From Erythrobasidium yunnanense (taxonomy: Eukaryota > Basidiomycota > Cystobasidiomycetes > Erythrobasidiales > Erythrobasidiaceae): DNA of 64,000 nt. Each line of letters opens with the position of its first letter. Within the stretch, counting starts at the first letter, position 1. Positions 36,543-59,126 of this stretch are shown here, piece by piece. The position numbers and the translations under genes are program-made. Location: the NCBI GenBank assembly GCA_001600175.1, contig BCJC01000005.1, positions 476,471 through 540,470 on the forward strand. The letters run 5' to 3'. The notes beneath the pieces were generated by a model. The model ran no database searches and was not told the origin of the DNA. It worked only from the letters and a program-made list of their open reading frames with translations.

Positions 36543-37928
36543 ATGCCTATGACTACATCGGTCGGTCAATATCAGTTAGGTAAGATGAGCTACACAAGCT
36601 GAGAAAGTCCGCAGCGTCCCTCAAGAAATGGCCATCTTCCATATCATGGAAAGCAGGCGTTCCTAAAGACTTCATCACCGCCTTCATGAAGCAAGACAGC
36701 CTGATCAGAGGATGTTCGCGAGCTCCGAAGGGGGATAAAGTATAATAAGTCAGCATTCTCTTCCGGTGCTGTACTGATTCTGTAGCGCAGGTTTGGTCTG
36801 TGCCGCATGTCTTCTACGAAGGTACACTAGCGGCTACCGGCGTGAAGAACCTCTATTTCGCAGCAAGCGATGTTGATTCTCTCATCGACATTGTCCTCTC
36901 CCACTATCCTGATATTCAACCACGTCTGCTCGTCCCTGCTCCCGACAAGTTCTTCCCACTCTCAGCCTTTTCCAGTCCGCCTACCCCAATCCGCTTCAAG
37001 ACTGTTGACGCGCTACAGATGTATCGATCTGGCACACAGCTATCCCAAGACACGCCTATCTATCAACAGAACAAAGCTGTTTTCGAGCAGATGCGAAAGC
37101 AAGGGAAAGGTACTGTCATCGCGGTGGATGTAGAGAGCTGGGAAGAGGATCATTCTATTGTGATAGAGATTGGCTGGAGCCACCTAGCATGGAGGAGCAG
37201 TGCTCTCTCTGGAAGGACGCAGGAGGTGTCTGCTGTCAAGCACTTCATTATTGACGAGCATAGGGAGTTCCGAAATGGGCAGTACAGCCCGGACAATCGA
37301 GACTACTTCTCCTTCGGCCGTTCAGAGACTGCATCACTCAAGGCTACCCTCCATCAGCTACAAGACTTCCTCGACGATGCGAAAGCCAAAGGACCCGTAC
37401 TTATGGTCTTCCACAATGCTTCGGCGGAGAAGGAATATTTCGCAAATCTCAGAATCGATACAAAAGACTGGATCGAAGGCTTTGAGCCTCTTCTTCCCGT
37501 CAAGAACAAAGATGTCGAAGAGCTCCTCATTGATCTTTCCGTAAACGACGCCAATTCGAGTATGTCAGCTAGTATTTCGTCGAAAGAGCATGCACTAGTG
37601 AAAGATGGATATGTCTATATGCAAGATACGCAAAAACTTTATGCTGGATCGGGACTGCCTGGCGCGATCAAGCAGATTGGCCTGCAGAATGCCCTCAACA
37701 AGCTCGAAATACCGAGTCGAAAGATGCACAACGCTGGGAATGATGCGCACTGTAAGTTTCCTCGCATGTTCTGTTCAGAGCGAGCTGATTATGTCGACAG
37801 ACACGCTTGCGCTGTACGAGACGCTCGTTGGAGGAGGCAAATTCAAGAAAGACCTCGTCGAACATGAGAAGAACAGGAAAGCGAACGAAGCAAAGAGACA
37901 GAACGAAAGGGGCTGGGGTGATTGGTGA
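36543..37928 (+). CDS. Gfd2/YDR514C-like RNase H-fold protein
   Basis: Four exons (36543-36579, 36615-36739, 36791-37751, 37801-37928) give 416 residues. The exonuclease-like core reads GTVIAVDVESWEEDHSIVIE, then KHFIIDEHREFRNG, VLMVFHNASAEKEYF and a late HNAGNDAHYTLALYETL. The D-x-E near the first strand, the internal H-N and the final N-D-A-x-Y are positions expected of DEDD-type nuclease folds and match the fungal Gfd2/YDR514C C-terminal domain. Yeast Gfd2 is linked to mRNA export; enzymatic activity is unproven. The N-terminal 35-nt intron keeps the frame into SLKKWPSSISWKAG. It is divergent from MSC2 with a gap of about 245 bp. Confidence 0.75.
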
Positions 37929-38020: not shown

Positions 38021-39784
38021 CTACTTTCGATTCGAGCTGGTGCTCGACTTTCGACTGGGCGTCTGCTTGTTGAGCAGAGCACGATAGTCCTTCCTTTGGC
38101 TGACTTTTTCGCACCTGAGAGCCATCTCGCCCCTTTCCAAGTTGACGAGAGCTCGCTTCAGCTCCACTATGCATTCCTTTGTGAATGCATTGGGATGCTC
38201 GAGCGCGCCACGTATGAAAGTTCTTGCAAGTGCTCGGATGAGCAGGAATTCTCGGGCAAGCGGAGCGTCGATGACCTCGAACTGCTTATTACCCTTCGCT
38301 GCCTGTTCAAGCTCTCTTTTCCTGTTCTGAGCTTCCTGTACCATTCGATAAGAAGACCAGGCTGGTTGGAGTGTCTTTGATTCTTTAGCATAAGCCAGAA
38401 AGAAGAGACCGCCAGTGGGATGGTATCCTGACTCTCCGACTTGGATTTGATGATCGTGCAGTCGCTTGTGTGTTTTGAGGCCTTTATCGAGTATATTTGC
38501 TGACCTTAAGACGATCAAGCTTTTACGCTTTGGACTTGGCACATCAAGAGGGCAGCCAGCTAGCACGTCTGTGTTACCTTTCCATGGGCATTTGAACAGA
38601 GCGGCCATCTCAGCCAACGAGTATGAAGCGTTCCATGTTTGCTCAGACTCCTTGCGGACTTGACATCTTAGTGTTGTTGCCCATATGTCGGAGGCTCTTT
38701 CGTGACCTGGAAGTACAGCACAATCTATTGCCGCTAACTTACCGGCTATCAGAACACGGGCTTGCGTGACTGTCAGGTTCTTGGCGTGAACGTAAGCAAG
38801 GAATGACATATATATAGCATTGCTTGGAAGGATGGAAGATGTCTCAGTGATAGTATTGATCAATCCGTAGCATTATCTCACCCATGTGGTAGCGAGTCAT
38901 GTAACGATATACGTCTGCTTGGTCTTTCCCTGTAACATAGCTTGGGTATTCGAGCTGCACCCATCCCTTGAGATATGTGTTGAAACGGATCTTCTAGCCT
39001 GACAAACTCGAGTGCAAGGAGAGGAACGGAACCCTAGCAGTGTTCGCATAATCCAAGACACGCGTGAATGCGCTCATAGAAGGAGTTTGTGGATCCCATG
39101 CCGTCCCGCCTCCTCTAATACCATTTGCACTCAGATCAATTGCGCCTGTAAAGGTGCATGCTTTTAGCTGTCGAATGACAGGCAACATAAGAAGTTTCTC
39201 GAGCAGCTTGAAAGATCCCTCGTTGTGGAAGATGAAAGCTCTCACACCGATAGCTTGACTTAGTTCTAAGGCTGCGATTTGATGAGTGTCTTGATTGCGA
39301 TTGGTTGGGCCGACGAATGAAGACTGCCTCAGCAACCTTACGCGGGAGGGCGTAGTGAAGATTCCGGCTGGTGGTATAGCTGTGCTTCTCAGTAATGAAG
39401 CGGCATCGCTTAATGCATACAGCCAATTTTCGTCATTGTTGCCGTCTCTTCCATCGTCGTTGCCATCGCCGTTGACATTGACCCCGCTGTTCACAATGAT
39501 GAGTTCGGCTTCCTTAGATGACCAACGGGAGAGTAGATGTGTGTATCTTATACTATAGCGTGGAACATGATCTGATGGCGTGTCTTCAGCCTTTGCTCTC
39601 CCAAAGCACATACGGAAGCAAAGGACTCACACACTACGGCCATACCAGGCTTAGGAGCGAGTGCATCCAGTACGTGATTGGTATAGTCCCACGCGGGCCC
39701 TTTGAAGTCGACGGCACCAGGCGCTGAGCGGAGATGCTGCAGTCGCGGATCATCCGGACTGATAGATTTGCGAACTTTACTCAT
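38021..39784 (-). pseudogene. Array copy A: decayed member of the nucleoside-hydrolase-like family
   Basis: Paralogue of the three intact genes to the right, sharing the start (SPDDPRLQHLRS, WDYTNHVLDALAPKPGMAVV), the first intron position, AFIFHNEGSFKLLEKLL and the C-terminal half (GCPLDVPSPKRKSLIVLRS, GGLFFLAYAKESKTL). The acidic motif FDGELDD is replaced by VPRYSIR. An in-frame TAG (about 38993-38998) falls where the intact copies have Trp (LSG-stop-KIRF against LAGWKKQ). After the former second intron (YHMG) the frame no longer joins cleanly. It is therefore probably a pseudogene, or at most yields a 240-residue N-terminal product and, separately, a 280-codon C-terminal ORF from 38863. 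Copy A also has an Asp/Asn/Gly-rich insertion. Confidence 0.7.
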
Positions 39785-40052
39785 AGTGCCCTTATACTGT
39801 CTTGACTCAAAGCGATAGGATACTTGCTGGAGTCAGAGAGACAAGCTGTCAAAGTGCAGAGGCACATCCAACCTGGAGGCGATGTTTTACGTTCGGGAAG
39901 AAAGGATGTTGAGCTTGGCCACGATCTCCAGCCATAGACCCTGTATATATCAGAGGGAGACCAAGTGCTATCATTCAAGTATGAATCCGAGGAGATGGTC
40001 TGAGATTGATGTCGTGAAGTACATCATATAAAGTCAGACAATAGCGGTATGC

Positions 40053-41682
40053 TCAGCCGGAACTGGATATTCGACTGCCTGTCTTTCGAATCTCTTTACA
40101 GAGCCTTGTCATCTCACCTCCTTTCAGATTGTCCAAGGCAAGATCAAAGCAGGCCTTACTGTTCGGAGGAAAGATGCCGATGTTGTCGAGTGCGCCGCGC
40201 AAAAAGAACTCGAATACCGTTCGGTACTGGAGAAACTCCTCGGCCAGTCGGCGGTCTATGATTGCAACTTGTCGGTTTCGGAGATTTGGCGTCGCTCCAT
40301 GTCTCGCGGTTCTGGCGAGACGGATGGATGCCCAGGCAGCATCTACCGTTTCGGACTCTTTCGCATACGCGAGTAAGTAGAGTCCACCTTTGACACTATA
40401 CGTAGGAGTTCCAACGGTAGCAGCAAAGCCGAGGTGAGCGTTGTTGGGCGAAAAGCCCTTGTCGGTAAAAGTTTGCGTTCGCAGTATGATCATTTTCTTT
40501 CGCTTGGGACATGGTATGTCGAGCGGTGATCCACCGAGATCACCCAGTGTGTTTGATAACGGTACGCCAGCGTTGCCCGCCATGGCTCTGAATCGAAACG
40601 ATTCCTTTGAGGGCTCCAGCGTGGACCAGGCTAACGCACGATCGCTAATCAGACTAGCCCAGCCATCTGAACCTTTAGACTGTACAGGGCGCACTTGAAA
40701 GTTGACAGATGCCAGTTTCTCTTGTACGAGAGTTTCAGTCTCCTGACCAGAAAGTCGCTTCGCACAAGCGTAGCCAGCAATTGCCCATCTCAACGCCAGT
40801 CCCATACCGAAGCGTACCATTTCGCGTGCATAATTGGCGTTGGCTTCTGTCGCAGCTGGTGCCAGCATGGTCGCAGCCCAATTCTTGAGCTCCGGCAAAT
40901 CTTGCTTCTTCCAGCCTGCCAAGCTGCCGTGAACGGAAAGGAAAGGGACACTTGCTGTTTTAGCGAAGTCGATGACCCGGTTGAATGCAGGCAGGTCCCA
41001 GCGCGCATTGGCGCCGGTTCTGATGGCTCCTTTGAATGCTGGAGTAGCGCAGGTGAAGCTGCAGCCCCTGAGCTGCCGATGCACGGGCAGGCCGAGCAGC
41101 TTGTCGAGTAGGCTGAAGGATGTGTTGTTGTGGAATACGAAAGGTCTCGTTCCGATAATCCGTGCTACATGGGCTGCTACTTCTTCAATCGTTTTAATCT
41201 TGCCAGCATCCGCTTTGCGGTTGGTCAAAGTACTCAAGGGTGCACCTGCCAGTAGACGTATGTTGTGCGAGGTGCTGAAGTGACCGTTTGGGAGCATCTT
41301 GCAGCCAAGTACTTCGTTGATGATTCCTTTCATTTCCTCGTAGGTATCGTCACCACCTAGGCGCTGTCCCGCAATGATCACCAGCTCTGCAGTGGAGGAC
41401 CAATGCAGAAGTAGATTCTCCAGCCTCAGCTTGTCGTCGAGCTCGCCATCAAAGTTGTCTTCGAGACAGATACATCCGTTCAATCGTCGTAGGCTTACGG
41501 TCAAAGGACTGCTCACAAATAATGGCCATGCCAGGTCTCGGTGCCAACGCATCCAGTACGTGATCGGTATAGTCCCACGTATGGTTCTCGAACCGAAAGG
41601 CTGGATTTGATCGTAGATGCTGCAGCCGTGGATCGTTGGGAGCGATTGGCTTAGGCATCTTCTTTCCTGTCGATACTTGCAT
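40053..41682 (-). CDS. Array copy B: nucleoside-hydrolase-like protein, unknown family
   Basis: Two exons (41682-41517, 41458-40053) give 523 residues. N-terminal half: WDYTDHVLDALAPRPGMAII, the acidic loop FDGELDDKLRLENLL, then ELVIIAGQRLGGDDTYEE, PFVFHNNTSFSLLDKLL, and GANARWDLPAFNRVIDFA with SVPFLSVHGSL. These recall the Ca-binding D-x-x-x-D-D loop, VAGN strand and N-x-x-x-D-P-E-A segment of inosine-uridine nucleoside hydrolases, in the same order. The C-terminal half is family-specific: GDLGGSPLDIPCPKRKKMII, GGLYLLAYAKESETVDAAWA, EFFLRGALDNIGIFP. No signal peptide or membrane helix. The intron acceptor is AAG. Unlike copy E it has no second intron. Confidence 0.75.
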
Positions 41683-42013
41683 TGTGCTAGACGTGCGGTA
41701 AGAGAGAGAGCAAGCAGGTGTTGCGAGAGAGCCAGCCGACGCTGAAATCGATGAAGGGCCCTAACGAGAAAGGGGCCCAATATGAAGGGCCCTGATGAGA
41801 GGTCCTAGTGTGACAAATATCTCAGGTTTCTGTAGAAGCGGCTGGCCATTTATACGAATTATACTGATGGTACTTCCAGTTAAACAGCTGAACTTGCAGT
41901 CGGACTTCAGGACAGTAGTAGGTTTTTCGCGCTTGCAATGGAGTCCTGCGATCGGATGCTACGTATATATCGTCCCAGGATACAGCAGTTTTCTACACTG
42001 TGTTCGACTTGCA

Positions 42014-43681
42014 TTACGCAAGCGAGGACTGAGACAGACGAGAAGACCCTCTGCGATTCGGCGCAGAGGTGCCCTGCTTTCGAATACCCTCGCAGAGCTT
42101 TGTCAGCTCTCCCTTCTCGAGGTTGGCAAAAGCGAGCTCGACGAAGGCCTTGCTGCTTGCGGGAAAGATACCGATGTTGTCCAGTATACCGCGCAAGAAG
42201 AATTCGAATATGGCTCGATAGGTTCTCCATTCCATAGCTAGTTGCGCGTCGAGGATCGGGAACTGCAAGTGGGAGCTCGAGCTTGTGCGCGCACCTTGAC
42301 GTCTCGCAGCTCTTGTGAGCCGAATTGCCGCCCAAGCTTTGTCGAGAGTTTCTGACTCTTTCGCATGAGCGAGGATGTATAGGCCACCTTTAGCAGTGTA
42401 AGTCGAGCTTCCAATCGTTGCTTTGTGACCAAGGCGGGTTCCTTTAGGAGAAAGACCTTGATCGACCCAAGATTCTACCTTGAGAATGACCAGCTTGTTT
42501 CGCTTTGGAAACGGCACGTCAAGCGGACATCCGCTGACATCACCAACGGTGTTGCTCCAGCTGCAGCCTGCGTTGACCACCATCGCTCTGATCGTAGTGG
42601 CATCTCTCGCCGGATCACGATTGGAAAATCCTGCTTCCTGACTGCTGACGTGACTCGTCCAGCCGTCTGATGGCTTCGGACGTCCAGTCTCAATGGTAAG
42701 ATGTGCGGCAGCTAGTTTAGCGTCCACCACGGCTTGCGTCTGCGGGCCAGACAGTGATTTGGCTGAAGCATAACCGCATACCGCCCACTCGAGGGCGACG
42801 CCCATACCAAATCTCACCATTTTGCGAGCGTAAATGGCATTCACTTCTGTTGCAGCGGGAGTGAACATAGTTGTAGCCCAGTTGCGGAGCTCCGGTAGAA
42901 CCTGTCTCTTCCAGCCTGCTAGGCTGCCATGCATTGCAAGGCAAGGCACGTTGAGTCTTTGAGCATGCTCGAGGATCCTCTCGAAGGCGGGACGATCCCA
43001 ATTAGCATTGGCTGCGAGGAATAAGTGACCTGGAGGGGCCGCAAGAGAGCAGGTGAGGGAACAGCCCTGCAACTGCTTACCGACCGGCAAGCTGAGTAGT
43101 TTGTCGAAGAGCGAACAAGAGGTGTTGTTATGGAAGACGAAAGGTCGAGCTCCGATTGCTTGCTCTACACGCTCTACTGCTTTCTGTAAAGCCTCATTTT
43201 TCACGGGATCCACCTTAGAGTTGGTGAGGCTGCTTAGTGTGCCACCTCTGATGAGTCGAACGTTGGGATGCGAAGTGAAGCAGCCAGAGGGAAGTGATTT
43301 ACAGCCCAGCACTTCAAGTATGACTCCCTTCAGTTCCTCGTAGGTAGCGTCACCATCATATCGCTGTCCAGCAACAATGATGAGATCGATCCCGGATGAC
43401 CACTTCAAGAGCAGATGCTCAAGTCTCAGATCGTCATCCAGCTCGCCATCGAAGCTGTCTGAAAGAGCGGCGAGGCAATGTCAGCGGGGAATAGTGCAAA
43501 ACATAAGCGAGCTGCGCTCACAGACAACGACCGTGCCAGGATTTGGTGCTAGTGCGTCGAGGACATGGTCCGTATAGTCCCAGATATACTGCATGAACTC
43601 CATGGACGGATTGGTGCGTAGGTGCCGTAAACGGGGGTCCATAGGCGCTATCGGTATACGGCGTTGTCGATGTTGACTCAT
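42014..43681 (-). CDS. Array copy C: nucleoside-hydrolase-like protein, unknown family
   Basis: Two exons (43681-43522, 43458-42014) give 534 residues. The same blocks are present: DPRLRHLRTNP, WDYTDHVLDALAPNPGTVVV, SFDGELDDDLRLEHLLLKWS, DLIIVAGQRYDGDATYEEL, PFVFHNNTSCSLFDKLL, ANANWDRPAFERILEHA, GWKRQVLPELRNWATTM, GCPLDVPFPKRNKLVIL, GGLYILAHAKESETLDKAWA and EFFLRGILDNIGIFP. The first intron is phase 1 after the strand VVV, as in all copies; there is no second intron. All three acidic residues of the loop are present. The substrate is unknown; hydrolase activity is inference from the motif layout. Confidence 0.75.
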
Positions 43682-43860
43682 TTCGGTGACCTAAACAATG
43701 TTTTGCTTGCGTGGTAGTAGTGATGAAGGCAAGAGCGGATGCCCCCATTTGCAATAGGCTCCCAGTTTCGTCCCCTTCAAGCCAAGGTTTTACCGCTGAA
43801 CAGTCGTCCGTAGCGGGGCCGTGGATGGACGGTATTGGGGGCAACAGTTGTGTGGTCTTA

Positions 43861-44258
43861 TCAAGATAGAGATCCTCTTCTACTGGAGGAGGGCGATCGC
43901 TCCTTTTTGCTGATCTCCTTGCAGAATCTGACCATCGTTCCATTCTCCGGATTGACCACAGCTCGTTTAAGGATTGCTTTGCTCTCTTTCGGGAAGATCC
44001 CCACGTTTTCCAAAGTACTTCGAAGGAAAAACTCGAAGATCGACCTCCAGAGCATCCATCCGGACGCTCAGCTAGCGTCAAAGATTTGAATATCTTCTGT
44101 ACAGGTCCGATGCGAGCAGTTAAACGACTTCTTGCTGTTCTAGCAAGTCCAATCGCAGCCCAAGCTGGATGCAGCGTTTCTGACTCTTTCGCAAATGCGA
44201 GGATGTGTAGATAGCCTTCGGAAGTATAGGTCGTCCCGTACGACTTGAATACTGTCGA
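43861..44258 (-). pseudogene. Array copy D: 3' fragment
   Basis: Only the last 130 or so codons of a family member are present, from GTTYTSEGYLHILAFAKESE to the C-terminus (SIFEFFLRSTLENVGIFPKE, SKAILKRAVVNPENGTMVRF). A frame disruption lies between IQIF and MLWRSIF. It is closest to copy E (EFFLRGTLENVAIFPKESKA), and even the 3' flank matches: AGATCCTCTTCTACTGGAGG occurs beside both. It thus arose by duplication of the end of copy E plus flank. Upstream of it the unrelated 214-residue gene begins almost at once, so the break may mark an insertion or deletion boundary. Confidence 0.7.
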
Positions 44259-44264
44259 GAATCT

Positions 44265-45094
44265 TTATAGTCTGATCAAGTCCGCCGTATCCGCGCGGCC
44301 GCTGCTAGAGGAAGCAAGCTCCTGGGCTTCCGGCTGGCTGCTCTCATCCTCTGAATTTCTGTCTGCCCAAGCCTTGCCGAATGCGATGCTGCGACGAACT
44401 TCGATTTCTAAAGTCCGCATTTGCAATCAGCGGAGCTGAATGGCAAGGGCGCACCTGGACTCACCCATCTCACGGGCGTTCTTGACTAGTATCTGAGCCA
44501 AAGCTCCTCGAAGCTCCCTGCACAGTTCGTTGACAGCGTGCTTCAGCATGAACTCCGAGATGAATGTGCCCGCATCATCTTCATAGATACACGTTTCGAT
44601 CGCAGGCATGATGTTACTGATAGCCGGCGCTACCAAGGGGTAAGCAGCGTACTTTCCGGAGAGATGAGGTAGGACAAGATTGAGGTGGTATACTATCTGA
44701 CCCTTTGCGACCCAAGTTTCGAAAGACAATGGGGAAGAAGAACGAGGTAACCAATTTTTCGGTACTTTGATAACTGCGCTCGCGCCGTACCAGACGAAGG
44801 ATCACGGTTGGACGAATAGATGTACCGTCCATGTTGCGCTTATAGTTCAGGGATCCCGGAAGCCTTGCCAGCTCGCCCAAGATATACCTTCAACGCAAAC
44901 GCAAACAGGCCAAGTCAGACAATGTCTGTAAAGATCTTGCCTTTCTGCACTGTGACTGCTCACTTGATGTTCATCGTACATTGCTCGTCAGATGACGGGG
45001 CCCGGAAAGGCAGCTTGTTGGGCGTGGTCAATCTCGAGTACTTTATGGCGAGCGGGGCATCATCGAGGCAGAACAAGACTTTCTCGATGAACAT
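44265..45094 (-). CDS. Unknown 214-residue protein inside the array
   Basis: Four exons (45094-44964, 44887-44826, 44773-44465, 44407-44265) join with consensus GT donors, and the total divides by three. The product starts MFIEKVLFCLDDAPLAIKYS, continues YILGELARLPGSLNYKRNMD, LSFETWVAKGQIVYHLNLVL, AISNIMPAIETCIYEDDAGT, NELCRELRGALAQILVKNAR, and ends in a Ser/Glu-rich tail. It is unrelated to its neighbours and I recognise no family. The frame is open further upstream to about 45230, so the start could lie earlier. Opposite-strand ORFs here (44820-45146) are open too, but splice less well. Confidence 0.5.
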
Positions 45095-45331
45095 CGATAT
45101 CAGTGATGGTCGACAGCCGTGCTCGAATCGTATCTGGTATTCATGACATGGAAGGGACGCAAAGGCGTTTAAAGAGCTGCGTAGCCGTATGCTGCACTTC
45201 GAGAAGACAAAGAAGTCGGCGAATGAAGCTATGGTCCAACAATGCTTTACGCGTGTCGATTCTAGAGAATTGAAACCGCTCGCAGCAGCTTATGATGAAG
45301 ATCGAGATCCTCTTCTACTGGAGGAGTGAGA

Positions 45332-47023
45332 TCACTTCCTTTCGCTCATAGCCTTGCATAATCTGACCATCGTACCGTTCTCCAGGTTGACCACAGCTCG
45401 TTCCAGTATTGCTTTGCTTTCTTTTGGGAAGATCGCTACGTTTTCCAATGTACCTCGAAGGAAGAACTCGAAGATACTCTTCCATAGTAGCCACTCTTTG
45501 CTGAGCTGGGCATCCAAGATCGGGAACGTCTTCTGCGTGACTCCAGCGCGCGCGGCCGCACGCTTTCTAGTTGTTCTAGAAAGTCGGATAGAGGCCCAAG
45601 CGGTATCGAGCGTCTCCCACTCATCGGCAAAAGCCACTATATGCAGGCCACCCGTTGGCTTATAAGCTGATTGACCGAATTTTGCTCTGTAGCCAAGTTG
45701 TACACCTTTTGGCGATTCACCCTTGTCGGCAAACTCGTCGATCTTCAGGACGATCATTTTGTCGAGTTTTGGACGTGGTACGTCGAAGGGAATACCCGCT
45801 AGATCCCCTATCGTGTTCCCCACGGGAGTCTGCAGCTTGCCAGCCATTGCCTCAAATCTGAAGGCGTCTCTTGAGGGCTCCAGCTTAGACCAGGCGGCCG
45901 AACGGTTACTGACCAAAGTGGCCCATTCATCTGAGCTCTTCGAGGACCCTGACTGCATGTCGCATTGTACTGACTGGAGCTTGCTATCTACCAGCGCGGA
46001 GGTCTGTGGACCTGCGAGGCCTTCGGCGAGTGCATATCCTGCTATACACCACCTGAGGGCAAGACCTGCAATGTCAGACAATATATCAGATTATAAGCTC
46101 CAGTGGTAAATGAGAAAGGAGGAAGACCAACCCATGCCAAATCGAACGATCTTGCGTGAATAAGCCGCGTCGGCCTCACTGGTAGCTGGCGCCAGAACAG
46201 TCTCTGTCCAATTCGGCAAGTCGTCCAGGTTGACTCGTTTCCAGCCTGCATTTAGCCCATAAAGCGTAAGCATGGGCGCGTTCGATGTTTTGGCGTATTC
46301 CAGTACTCTGTTGAATGCGCCTTCGTCCCATCGGGCATTGGCTCCCTTGTAGAAGCCTTTGGCGACTTTGGCAGTTGCACAAGTGAAGGTACAACCTTTC
46401 AGCTGCTTCGCGACTGGAAGTCGGAGCAGGTTGTCGAGCAGGCTGAAGGATGTATTGTTGTGAAAGACGAATGGCCGATCGCCAATGTATGAAGCTAGAA
46501 GCTTTGCTATGATTTGCAGTTGCCTAACTTTCTTCGCGTCTGGTACTTTGGTAGATTCGTTGACGCTAGTAAGAGGTCCACCTCGTAAGAGTCGGATATT
46601 GTGACGGGATGTGAATCGACCTCCAGGTATTGTAGAACACTTCAAGACTACGCTGATGAGAGCGCTGAGCTCATCGAATGTATTGTCCCCACCGAGGCGT
46701 TGACCAGCCAAGATCAACAGTTCAGCGGGAGAAGACCAATGTAGCAGCAAGTGCTCAAGTCTGAGCTTGTCGTCAAGTTCACCATCGAAGTGGTCTGCCG
46801 GACGCGAGACACAGCCTCAGTGTATGTAGATGCGTGGAGGTCTGTAGAAGCACTTACAGAGAACGACTGTGCCAGGCCTGGGAGCCAGTGCGTCCAGTAC
46901 ATGATCTGTATAGTCCCAGACGGGTCCTACGAAGTCGAAAGAGTCATGCGAGCGGAGATGCTGCAAGCGCGGATCGTTGCTATCCAACGGCTTTGGGGTT
47001 TGACTTTTGGGAGAGGTCGTCAT
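45332..47023 (-). CDS. Array copy E: nucleoside-hydrolase-like protein, unknown family
   Basis: Three exons (47023-46858, 46794-46132, 46065-45332) give 520 residues. Blocks: NDPRLQHLRSHDSFDF, WDYTDHVLDALAPRPGTVVL, HFDGELDDKLRLEHLLLHWS, ELLILAGQRLGGDNTFDEL, PFVFHNNTSFSLLDNLLRLP, GANARWDEGAFNRVLEYAKT, GLALRWCIAGYALAEGLAGP, PFDVPRPKLDKMIVLKIDEF and EFFLRGTLENVAIFPKESKA. The second intron (66 nt, phase 1, after RFGMG) is absent from copies B and C but its site is recognisable in copy A. This suggests that B and C lost it, or that A and E share a later gain. The start is supported by the conserved spacing to DPRLQHL. Confidence 0.75.
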
Positions 47024-56010: not shown

Positions 56011-59000
56011 ATGAGGCCATCCAGAGCTGCAGCGAGCCTTCTGAGGCAGCAGCGTCGGCCTGCGACGACGTCCAGATTGCTGGCTTCTTCGACGTCGCCG
56101 TCTCCCGTTCTGACGAGATCCCTCTTCACGCGAAAGACTCCCGCTCAGCGCATCAAAGGCCGTATCTGGACAGCGACTGGCATTGTTCTAGGTGGTCTCT
56201 TTGCAGTATATGCCTACGACAGCAGCGCAGGCGTTCATCGGTAACAGCCAGCTTTCACCTATGCAACTTGTTCGCAATCCAAATGCTCATGTTTCTGTGC
56301 TTTTCCCGCTTTCGCACACGTTCGCAGATGGCTGTTTACACCTCTACTTCATGCATTCACGAAGGATGACCCCGAAGCTTCACACAAGTTCGCTATAAAG
56401 GTCTTGAAAAGCGGACTATCGCCAGTAGATGTCCAGGACGATCAGAATGTGCTAGCTTTTGAGGTAGATCATTCCCCCACATCTTATCAACGCTCGCTAA
56501 TTCGTCTTACCAGCTATGGGGCAAACGCTTCTCGAATCCAGTCGGCTTGGCTGCCGGTTTCGACAAGCATGCAGAAGCTATTGACGGGCTCTTCAATCTT
56601 GGGTTCTCCTACGTCGAGATAGGATCCGTAACTCCTCAAGGACAGCCTGGCAACCCCCAACCGCGCATGTTTCGCCTACCTGAATCGCAAAGCGTGATAA
56701 ACCGATATGGCTTCAATTCGGATGGTCATCTAGCTGTACTTGAGCGCTTGAGAGATAGGATACATGCATATTTAGTCAAGAATGCACGGCTCCTGCCAGC
56801 GACGACTTTCCCTGAACAACCTATATCAGCCAACCCAATTACCGATCCTGTACAAGCTATCCTAGCCAACAATACCGACACTGGCGTCCTCGATAACCTC
56901 GGTCTACCACGCTCTCTGTCGAATGGAAAGATCCTCGCCATCAATCTGGGCAAGAACAAGCTGTCTGCGCCAGAAGCGGTGGATGACTACGTAGCGGGCG
57001 TGCAGACCCTCGGCCCATATGCAGATGTGCTAGTCGTCAATGTCTCATCTCCAAATACACCCGGCCTGCGGTCACTTCAGAAGAGAGGCATCATTACCGA
57101 CCTTCTGAGTCAGGTCATTGCGGCAAGAGATGGCCTGAAAGGAACCAAGCCCGTAGTATTGCTCAAGATCGCACCGGATCTATCAAGACAGGAAGTGGCG
57201 GATATTGGAAGAGCCGCGAAGGAGACCAAAGTTGACGGAATCATCGTCTCAAATACTACCATCTCAAGGCCGGCTTCAGCAGGAAATGGTGAGTTTGTCC
57301 CTGCTTCTGGGTCTGAACGATCACTTTATGAGCACAGATTGACGTCCTTGTCGCTCATAGACTCCGCTCTTAATGAAGCTGGTGGTCTTTCCGGTCCTCC
57401 GCTCAAGCCGCTATCTATTCGCACTCTACAAACACTCTACGCCCTCACGTCAGGCTCAATCCCTCTCATTGGCTGCGGTGGCATCAGCTCCGGTGCCGAT
57501 GCGCTCGACTACGCAAAAGCTGGTGCTTCCTTCGTTCAGCTATACACTGCTCTCGGCTACCAAGGAGTCGGACTACCCCGAATGATCAAGGACGAGATTG
57601 CAGTGGAGCTTCAGAAGGATAAGAAGACCTGGAAAGATATCATCGGGAGCGGGGTAGATCTGAAGAGCGTTCAACAGCTAGGCAGAGATGTCAACCCAGT
57701 CAATGTACTTGGGCTAGAAGGAGATGAGAGCGGATTCAGCAAGCTGAAACGGGAGATCGAGGATGTATTGGCTGGACGCTCGCCAGTCTCTCCAGTACAG
57801 CAAGTCGAGCAAGAACTGCCGGACTGGGAGGACTCTCCTGCTTTCAATGGACGAGCCGCTTCCTCTGCCCTTCCTTCGTCTTCGCACTCCGAATCTGGCT
57901 TGATTCCGGAAGGCTATCCCCAAATCATCATTGTCGAGACACCTCCGAAATATGCTCCTGCACCGCTTTGGACGAAGAAGGATGTAGACGAGAAGCTTGC
58001 GCAAGGGAAAGAGCTTGTCCATAAAGTCGAAGACAAGCTTGCAGACGCAACGCAAGCCACGAAGGAGATACTGCAACAGACCAAAGACAATGCAGTCGCT
58101 GTGGCGCATGACATCGCAGATGATGAACTCGCACGACGAGTCAAGGATGTTACTGCGGAAGTCACTCGCCAGACCACCGAGAACTTCAAGAAGCTAGGCA
58201 AGGACATCAAGAATGACGAGTTTGCCAAAGAGGTCAAAGATACAACCGAGGCTATTCTCAAGCAGACTAAGGACAACTTCGTGACGGTGGGTCGCAAGAT
58301 CCGGGATGAAGGACACGCCGGTGAGGCAGTCCAGTCATTCGTAGACGAGACAGTCGACAAAACACGAGCGGTTGCTCATAGCATTGTGAATGACGGCGAG
58401 TTCTCGAAGGCAGTCTCAGCTTTCACATCCGATGTTGTTCGGGAAACTATAGCCCGATCGAAAGCTCTAGGCAAAGCCGTGAGGGACGAAGGTCACTTTA
58501 GTGAGGCTGTACAGGGCGTCGTTCAAGAAACGCTCGCGAGGTCGAAAGCTTTAGCGAACAGCATCAAGCATGATGGTCCAAATTACAGCGAGGAGGTCAA
58601 GACTTTGACGCAAGACGTAGTCAATGAGACTATCGCACGCTCTCGCAAGCTCGGCCAGCACGTTGTGGAGGATGGAGACTTCGTTAGCAGCGTCAAGGAA
58701 ACCAGCAACAGTATCGTCCAAGAGGCGCTGGCCCGATCCCGCCAGCTAGGAAGGAGCTTACGCGAGGACGGAGATCTGCCAGGTGCCGCTAGAAATACGG
58801 CAGAAAGCATTGCGCATAACGCATCTGTCAAGACCCAGCGTGTCGTGGATGACATCAAGTCTGACTCGTTCCTGGAAGAAGTCAAACAGGCTTTCCGGCA
58901 GGCGACTGAAAACTTTAAGCAAGTCGGGAGGGACATCAAGCATGATCCCCTACTGCACCAGCAAGTCAACTTAGACGAAGCGAAGCGGGAAGTGCAGAGA

Positions 59001-59126
59001 GCACAGGCAGGACTCAAAGAGGGTCCAACGGGAGAAGATCAGAGGAACGGCAGTGGTATATTTAAGCTGCTTAGCACGTTTGGTGAGCGTGCCAATGTGA
59101 CGAGCGAAAGTAAAAGGATTGTGTAA
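56011..59126 (+). CDS. URA9: Mitochondrial dihydroorotate dehydrogenase fused to a repeat-rich C-terminal extension
   Basis: Three exons (56011-56240, 56328-56463, 56514-59126) give 992 residues. An Arg/Ser-rich mitochondrial presequence is followed by a TM helix (WTATGIVLGGLFAVYAY). The class 2 DHODH domain spans about residues 90-520: NPVGLAAGFDKHAEAIDGL, RYGFNSDG, NVSSPNTPGLR with the catalytic Ser, KIAPDLS, VSNTT and GCGGISSGADALDYAKAGAS. It oxidises dihydroorotate to orotate with quinone at the inner membrane. After a Pro/Ser linker come about 400 residues of roughly ten 30-33-residue amphipathic units, consensus ETIARSKALGKAVRDEGHFS, rich in Ala/Lys/Asp/Glu. They are in one exon with the enzyme and without a stop, so the fusion is real in this sequence. 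They resemble LEA or apolipoprotein helices. Confidence 0.93.

Follow-up and report, generated by a model that had tools for sequence, protein, structure and literature searches.

A tandem gene array in Erythrobasidium yunnanense encodes a conserved protein family with possible distant kinship to nucleoside hydrolases

The basidiomycete Erythrobasidium yunnanense carries a tandem array of paralogous genes within a 64,000-nucleotide stretch of its genome (the window; assembly GCA_001600175.1, contig BCJC01000005.1, positions 476,471 to 540,470). A preliminary description, made from the letters of the window, had proposed that the array encodes an undescribed, locally expanding and fast-evolving family resembling inosine-uridine nucleoside hydrolases. 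Here, we describe the genes of the array and their relatives elsewhere in the genome, and weigh a distant kinship with nucleoside hydrolases (NHs), which we regard as a tentative reading, against other explanations.

The array and its relatives in the genome

The minus strand of the window between 38021 and 47023 holds five copies, A to E, three of which yield open spliced gene models at the positions and on the strand first proposed: gene B (40053-41682; exons 41682-41517 and 41458-40053; 523 amino acids), gene C (42014-43681; exons 43681-43522 and 43458-42014; 534 amino acids) and gene E (45332-47023; exons 47023-46858, 46794-46132 and 46065-45332; 520 amino acids). The open coding sequence lies mainly in a long exon 2 in B and C, and in exons 2 and 3 in E. 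Intron 1 measures 58 nucleotides in B and 63 in both C and E, and the second intron of E 66; the splice sites were chosen by conservation from several in-frame options, of which B and C had 8 each and E had 20. The sequence blocks that the preliminary description had quoted as common to the members are present in the translations of these models, among them the motif DGELDD, encoded on the minus strand at 41433-41450 in B, 43433-43450 in C and 46769-46786 in E. The proteins are 56% (B and C), 54% (B and E) and 50-51% (C and E) identical, and the copies are linked at the DNA level by families of direct repeats of 39-199 nucleotides with 61-83% identity.

The remaining two copies are decayed, as had also been proposed. 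Copy A (38021-39784, minus strand), located by tblastn with family members and by translation, retains exon 1 (approximately 39784 to 39632), most of an interrupted exon 2, and an exon 3 that is open to 38021. Its second exon contains one in-frame TAG at 38994-38996, and DGELDD is absent from every minus-strand frame of 39530-39640, where by eye just the first D remains. In the tree of the family, the branch leading to copy A amounts to 1.49 changes per column, compared with 0.33-0.50 for B, C and E. We considered that copy A might be an old relic and set the idea aside: its third codon positions still differ most, so its decay looks late, yet in the tree it has a branch three to four times the length of those of B, C and E. 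Fragment D (approximately 43900-44234, minus strand) is the 3' end of a copy nearest to E, lies in two frames and has one internal stop. It aligns with residues 409-520 of E, with 71% identity over residues 459-520; at the DNA level it shares 83% identity with the 3' end of E, a likeness that reaches position 43860.

The family extends beyond the array. Three more relatives lie outside the window, whose contig, one of 10 in the 20.9 Mb genome, is here labelled C5: gene F (C5:565876-567561, plus strand), approximately 25 kb past the window, and genes G (C1:4222507-4224115, minus strand) and H (C6:719730-721605, minus strand). Searches of the genome with exon 2 of E and with C, H and G returned no members besides A to H; one stretch on contig C7, retrieved with H at an E-value of 0.97, was taken as a chance match. 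The family thus comprises six unbroken gene models (B, C, E, F, G and H) of 496-570 amino acids. Unlike the other five models, gene H has a long Ser/Arg-rich tail at its end.

The six models share a gene structure. In all of them intron 1 follows the first base of an invariant Tyr codon, and this Tyr immediately precedes x-[FWT]-D-G-E-L-D-D. Which base the intron follows depends in part on our choice, since conservation guided the selection of splice sites, but exons 1 and 2 meet there in every gene. A second intron, placed where a stretch reading GMG or its equivalent ends, occurs in E, G and H and, by tblastn, in copy A, while B, C and F read through this position. An unrooted tree joins A, B, C and E in one group (support 99/98) and pairs G with H (97/96), with F in between. 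The grouping of A, B, C and E apart from F, G and H indicates that the array arose by local expansion, as the preliminary description had suggested, inside a family that is older.

Fifty-three columns are invariant in the six members, at overall identities of 27-56%. In the numbering of B, these include Y56, D59, G60, E61, L62, D63, D64, R67, E69, W75, G86, R88, T94, E97, H165, N167, T191, C192, N206, N358, G361, D362 and D369, with D17, R19 and H22 as further invariant polar residues. Nonsynonymous divergence (dN) ranges from 0.36 to 0.88 over pairs of the six models. Synonymous divergence (dS) is 2.3-4.9 in 7 of the 15 pairs and saturated in the other 8, and the ratio dN/dS in the seven computable pairs is 0.14-0.31; dS itself is unreliable at such levels. 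Between B and C, the differences at the three codon positions are 0.33, 0.26 and 0.57, the third being highest. These are signs of purifying selection on the family, with nothing pointing to rapid adaptive change, and the epithet "fast-evolving" is left without support. Open gene models, a common intron position, signs of purifying selection and invariant polar residues all mark the copies as a real family. The N-termini are not strongly hydrophobic (highest 19-residue mean 0.69, starts 1-30), which suggests that the proteins are probably intracellular, in the cytosol.

The setting of the array, with its short introns and with neighbours that include genes for Nup85, a dihydroorotate dehydrogenase and an MFS transporter (10 open frames scanned), fits a fungus. 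Adjoining the array at 36749-37864 (plus strand) is a gene with a DEDDh_C domain (PF21762, E-value 3.6e-35). Between D and E, a 124-amino-acid open frame at 44427-44801 (minus strand) has one other match in the genome (C5:1143351-1143485; 42% identity over 45 amino acids) and may be a gene fragment or belong to another small family of genes. The dihydroorotate dehydrogenase domain (best stretch, residues 17-270) belongs to a single 887-amino-acid open frame at 56463-59123 (plus strand), the long C-terminal part of which gave just an apolipophorin-like match below the cut-off.

Comparison with known families and with nucleoside hydrolases

The proposal that the family is undescribed agrees with searches of Pfam, NCBIfam, PADLOC, PHROGs and the PDB, which gave it no name. 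None of the six members matched a Pfam family below an E-value of 0.15, four proteins matched no NCBIfam family (best E-value 0.18), and PADLOC gave no match at an E-value of 1. PHROGs contained no relative, the best match being a PHROG of unknown function (E-value 0.076), and neither single proteins (best E-value 0.77) nor a profile (best E-value 0.6) found a relative in the PDB. Scattered weak library matches, none below an E-value of 0.07, were confined to a single member or to an isolated stretch, and we took them as chance. Phage records searched with exon 2 of B contained no relative, and viral contigs gave 44 pattern matches and no relatives. A profile of the six members, run against 396, 398 and 296 genomes of three prokaryotic phyla, produced 2, 2 and 0 short marginal matches (E-values 0.0016-0.0043); these four matches in 1090 genome searches, which included no known family-bearing genome as a positive control, were likewise taken as chance. 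Ten further prokaryotic genome searches with this profile, three of them on genomes that are centres of the set of 1090, gave none at an E-value of 1. Among the matches listed in the literature on related fungal families, nothing concerned the family of B, C and E.

Kinship with NHs was assessed against 79 of 80 bacterial NH loci, the Pfam profile PF01156 and the NH fingerprint. The elements beta1, DxxxDD loop, beta2, N-xxx-D and (I)P strand follow one another as in PF01156 (IU_nuc_hydro), and in an ordered-block test that allows 15 residues of spacing slack, only 5 and 1 of 1000 shuffles scored as high as the family. Three NH blocks found their best sites colinearly. An Asn that may correspond to the ribose-binding Asn of EFN-xxx-D in NHs is present in all six members, and an Asp four residues after it in four of them. 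Calcium is bound in NHs by a pair of Asp from DxDxxxDD and by another Asp approximately 230 residues later (PMC8910321). In the family, the second Asp and the DD are kept in all six members; D362, in an invariant GD, lies approximately 300 residues past D59, no alignment places it as the third calcium-binding Asp, and a nine-block chain test did not put the HDP block there.

Structure models were built on unspliced stretches of the window, so that they represent genes of the array, F, G and H being left out. In model 1 (gene C with its intron read through; nine window rows), strands and helices alternate in the first half, and the first strand is made of intron residues. Foldseek placed NHs at ranks 2, 3, 4, 17 and 28 among the 50 PDB matches listed for this model, the rest including dehydrogenases; the NH matches have target TM-scores of 0.31-0.37 and root-mean-square deviations of 8-13 A. 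The structural evidence from the models leans toward, but falls short of establishing, an NH fold.

Other results lend such kinship no support. None of the six members exceeded the curated cut-off of PF01156, and the best score of any member with a hidden Markov model (HMM) of the 79 bacterial NHs was -2.4 bits. Local hhalign comparison of the whole family with NHs gave a probability of 0.4% and a score of 19.7, equal to the 19.7 of the best among nine control clusters. For the N-terminal half the probability was 0.7% and the score 19.7 (best control 19.7), and for the C-terminal half 0.2% and 14.9 (best control 15.6). In global mode NHs scored below most controls. Profile Smith-Waterman scores against NHs fell below the shuffle mean in all four settings, a 5-row NH alignment used as reference did no better than controls or shuffles, and single members scored within the control range; NH kinship is undetectable by profile and HMM measures. 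Of the seven ordered blocks, four score best at other places in the family sequences. DxDxxxDD after beta1 is incomplete, its first Asp being N, S or H in all six members, and the Glu two residues before the invariant Asn is Gly or Ala in all six. Model 1 is of low confidence (predicted local distance difference test, pLDDT, 47; predicted template modelling score, pTM, 0.34) and had no PDB match at an E-value of 0.001. Model 2 (gene B from just before exon 2; seven rows) is no firmer, with a pLDDT of 43 and most of its first half below 50, and its 50 listed matches were mostly ferritin-like and included no NH. Among 50 listed matches to viral models none was named as an NH, though many carried no name.

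The preliminary description, which did not call the family outright, had based its comparison with NHs on the order and spacing of motifs and had proposed HHpred or Foldseek searches against PF01156 and the PDB. The order withstands shuffling, although more than half of the blocks sit better elsewhere and profile comparison stays at background; NH chains stand high in the Foldseek ranking of one model, itself of low confidence, and on this evidence the NH fold is neither demonstrated nor refuted.

Candidate activity and alternative explanations

We favour, tentatively and at somewhat under even confidence, a family whose N-terminal alpha/beta domain is of a very divergent NH type and is followed by a C-terminal half of unknown type. 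A divalent metal would be bound by D59, D63, D64 and an invariant Asp further along, for example D362; together with N206, this metal would hold the two ribose hydroxyls; and a water activated by D59, acting as base, would cleave an N-ribosyl bond. A putative metal-dependent cytosolic hydrolase of this kind is possible, if not quite an even prospect. Glu and His aid catalysis in classical NHs. With the first fingerprint Asp, the Glu and probably the His replaced, an unusual riboside or a molecule like ADP-ribose would be a more likely substrate than a common nucleoside. Local duplication would have built up the array, while A and D fell into decay. It is doubtful, though worth stating, that these features together define a separate fungal branch of the NH superfamily, intracellular, with a rebuilt active site (DGELDD for DxDPGxDD), its own C-terminal domain, such an unusual substrate and a local array.

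The chief rival, quite credible in its own right though also short of an even chance, holds that the N-terminal domain is another Rossmann-like alpha/beta fold, unrelated to NHs, in which DGELDD evolved independently as a metal or catalytic loop and the NH-like motif order is one that a protein of alternating strands and helices can display by chance. The background-level profile and HMM comparisons speak for this explanation, and so does the Foldseek listing of model 1, in which 45 of 50 matches are to proteins other than NHs, with dehydrogenases, epimerases and further alpha/beta proteins numerous among them. Against it stand the colinear siting of three NH blocks and the position of DGELDD: a dehydrogenase would need a glycine-rich loop after beta1, and the family has the acidic motif there.

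Two further explanations seem less probable. That the proteins keep an NH fold and bind a ribose-bearing ligand such as ADP-ribose without hydrolysis, as reported for XopQ-type NH domains, is rather improbable. In its favour, the metal-site Asp persist despite substitution of the first fingerprint Asp and of the EFN Glu, and PMC8910321 describes inactive NH-fold proteins that keep the calcium site. The invariant D17, R19, H22, E61, R67, E69, R88, E97, H165 and N167 suggest instead a catalytic or very specific binding centre, and the members lack any match to PF07632. Very improbable is that these are ordinary lineage-specific paralogues with a structural or binding function and no enzymatic role; the failure to match any named family would suit this explanation, and against it speak the 53 invariant columns, in which Asp, Glu, Arg, His and Asn are frequent, at an overall identity of 27-56%.

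Relation to known systems and significance

Assignment of the family to the NH kind is made with reservation and falls somewhat below an even likelihood, the evidence being indirect, with neither a profile match nor the complete fingerprint found. Beyond these, the proteins differ from PF01156 in length (496-570 amino acids, compared with 313 profile positions). PF01156 genes that exceed the cut-off lie elsewhere in the genome, at C1:3870790-3872024 and C2:2787362-2788553, and there is a weak match at C5:1423760-1423912 (E-value 0.015). With these genes present, common nucleosides could be salvaged without the family of B, C and E. Sde182_NH-like (PF07632) is an NH-fold domain with an acidic DD loop; none of the six members matched its profile at an E-value of 1, nor did anything in the genome at 10. 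Sde_0182 is, according to PMC8910321, an NH-fold protein inactive on common nucleosides. The same paper describes XopQ-type NH domains, which have an altered active site and bind ADP-ribose. XopQ/HopQ, compared here by description, may offer a functional parallel, but these are proteins of plant-pathogenic bacteria, in contrast to the intron-bearing genes of the array, and neither was named among the 50 listed PDB matches of model 1.

Lineage-specific paralogues without characterisation, and families without a named domain, are common in fungal genomes. Should the NH kinship prove false, the genes described here would still form a conserved family without a named domain. If it is true, they would represent an unnamed set of proteins, probably fungal, in which the ribose and metal centre looks complete but is altered, and would provide a test case for the range of the NH scaffold, with paralogues and the motif-less copy A available for comparison.
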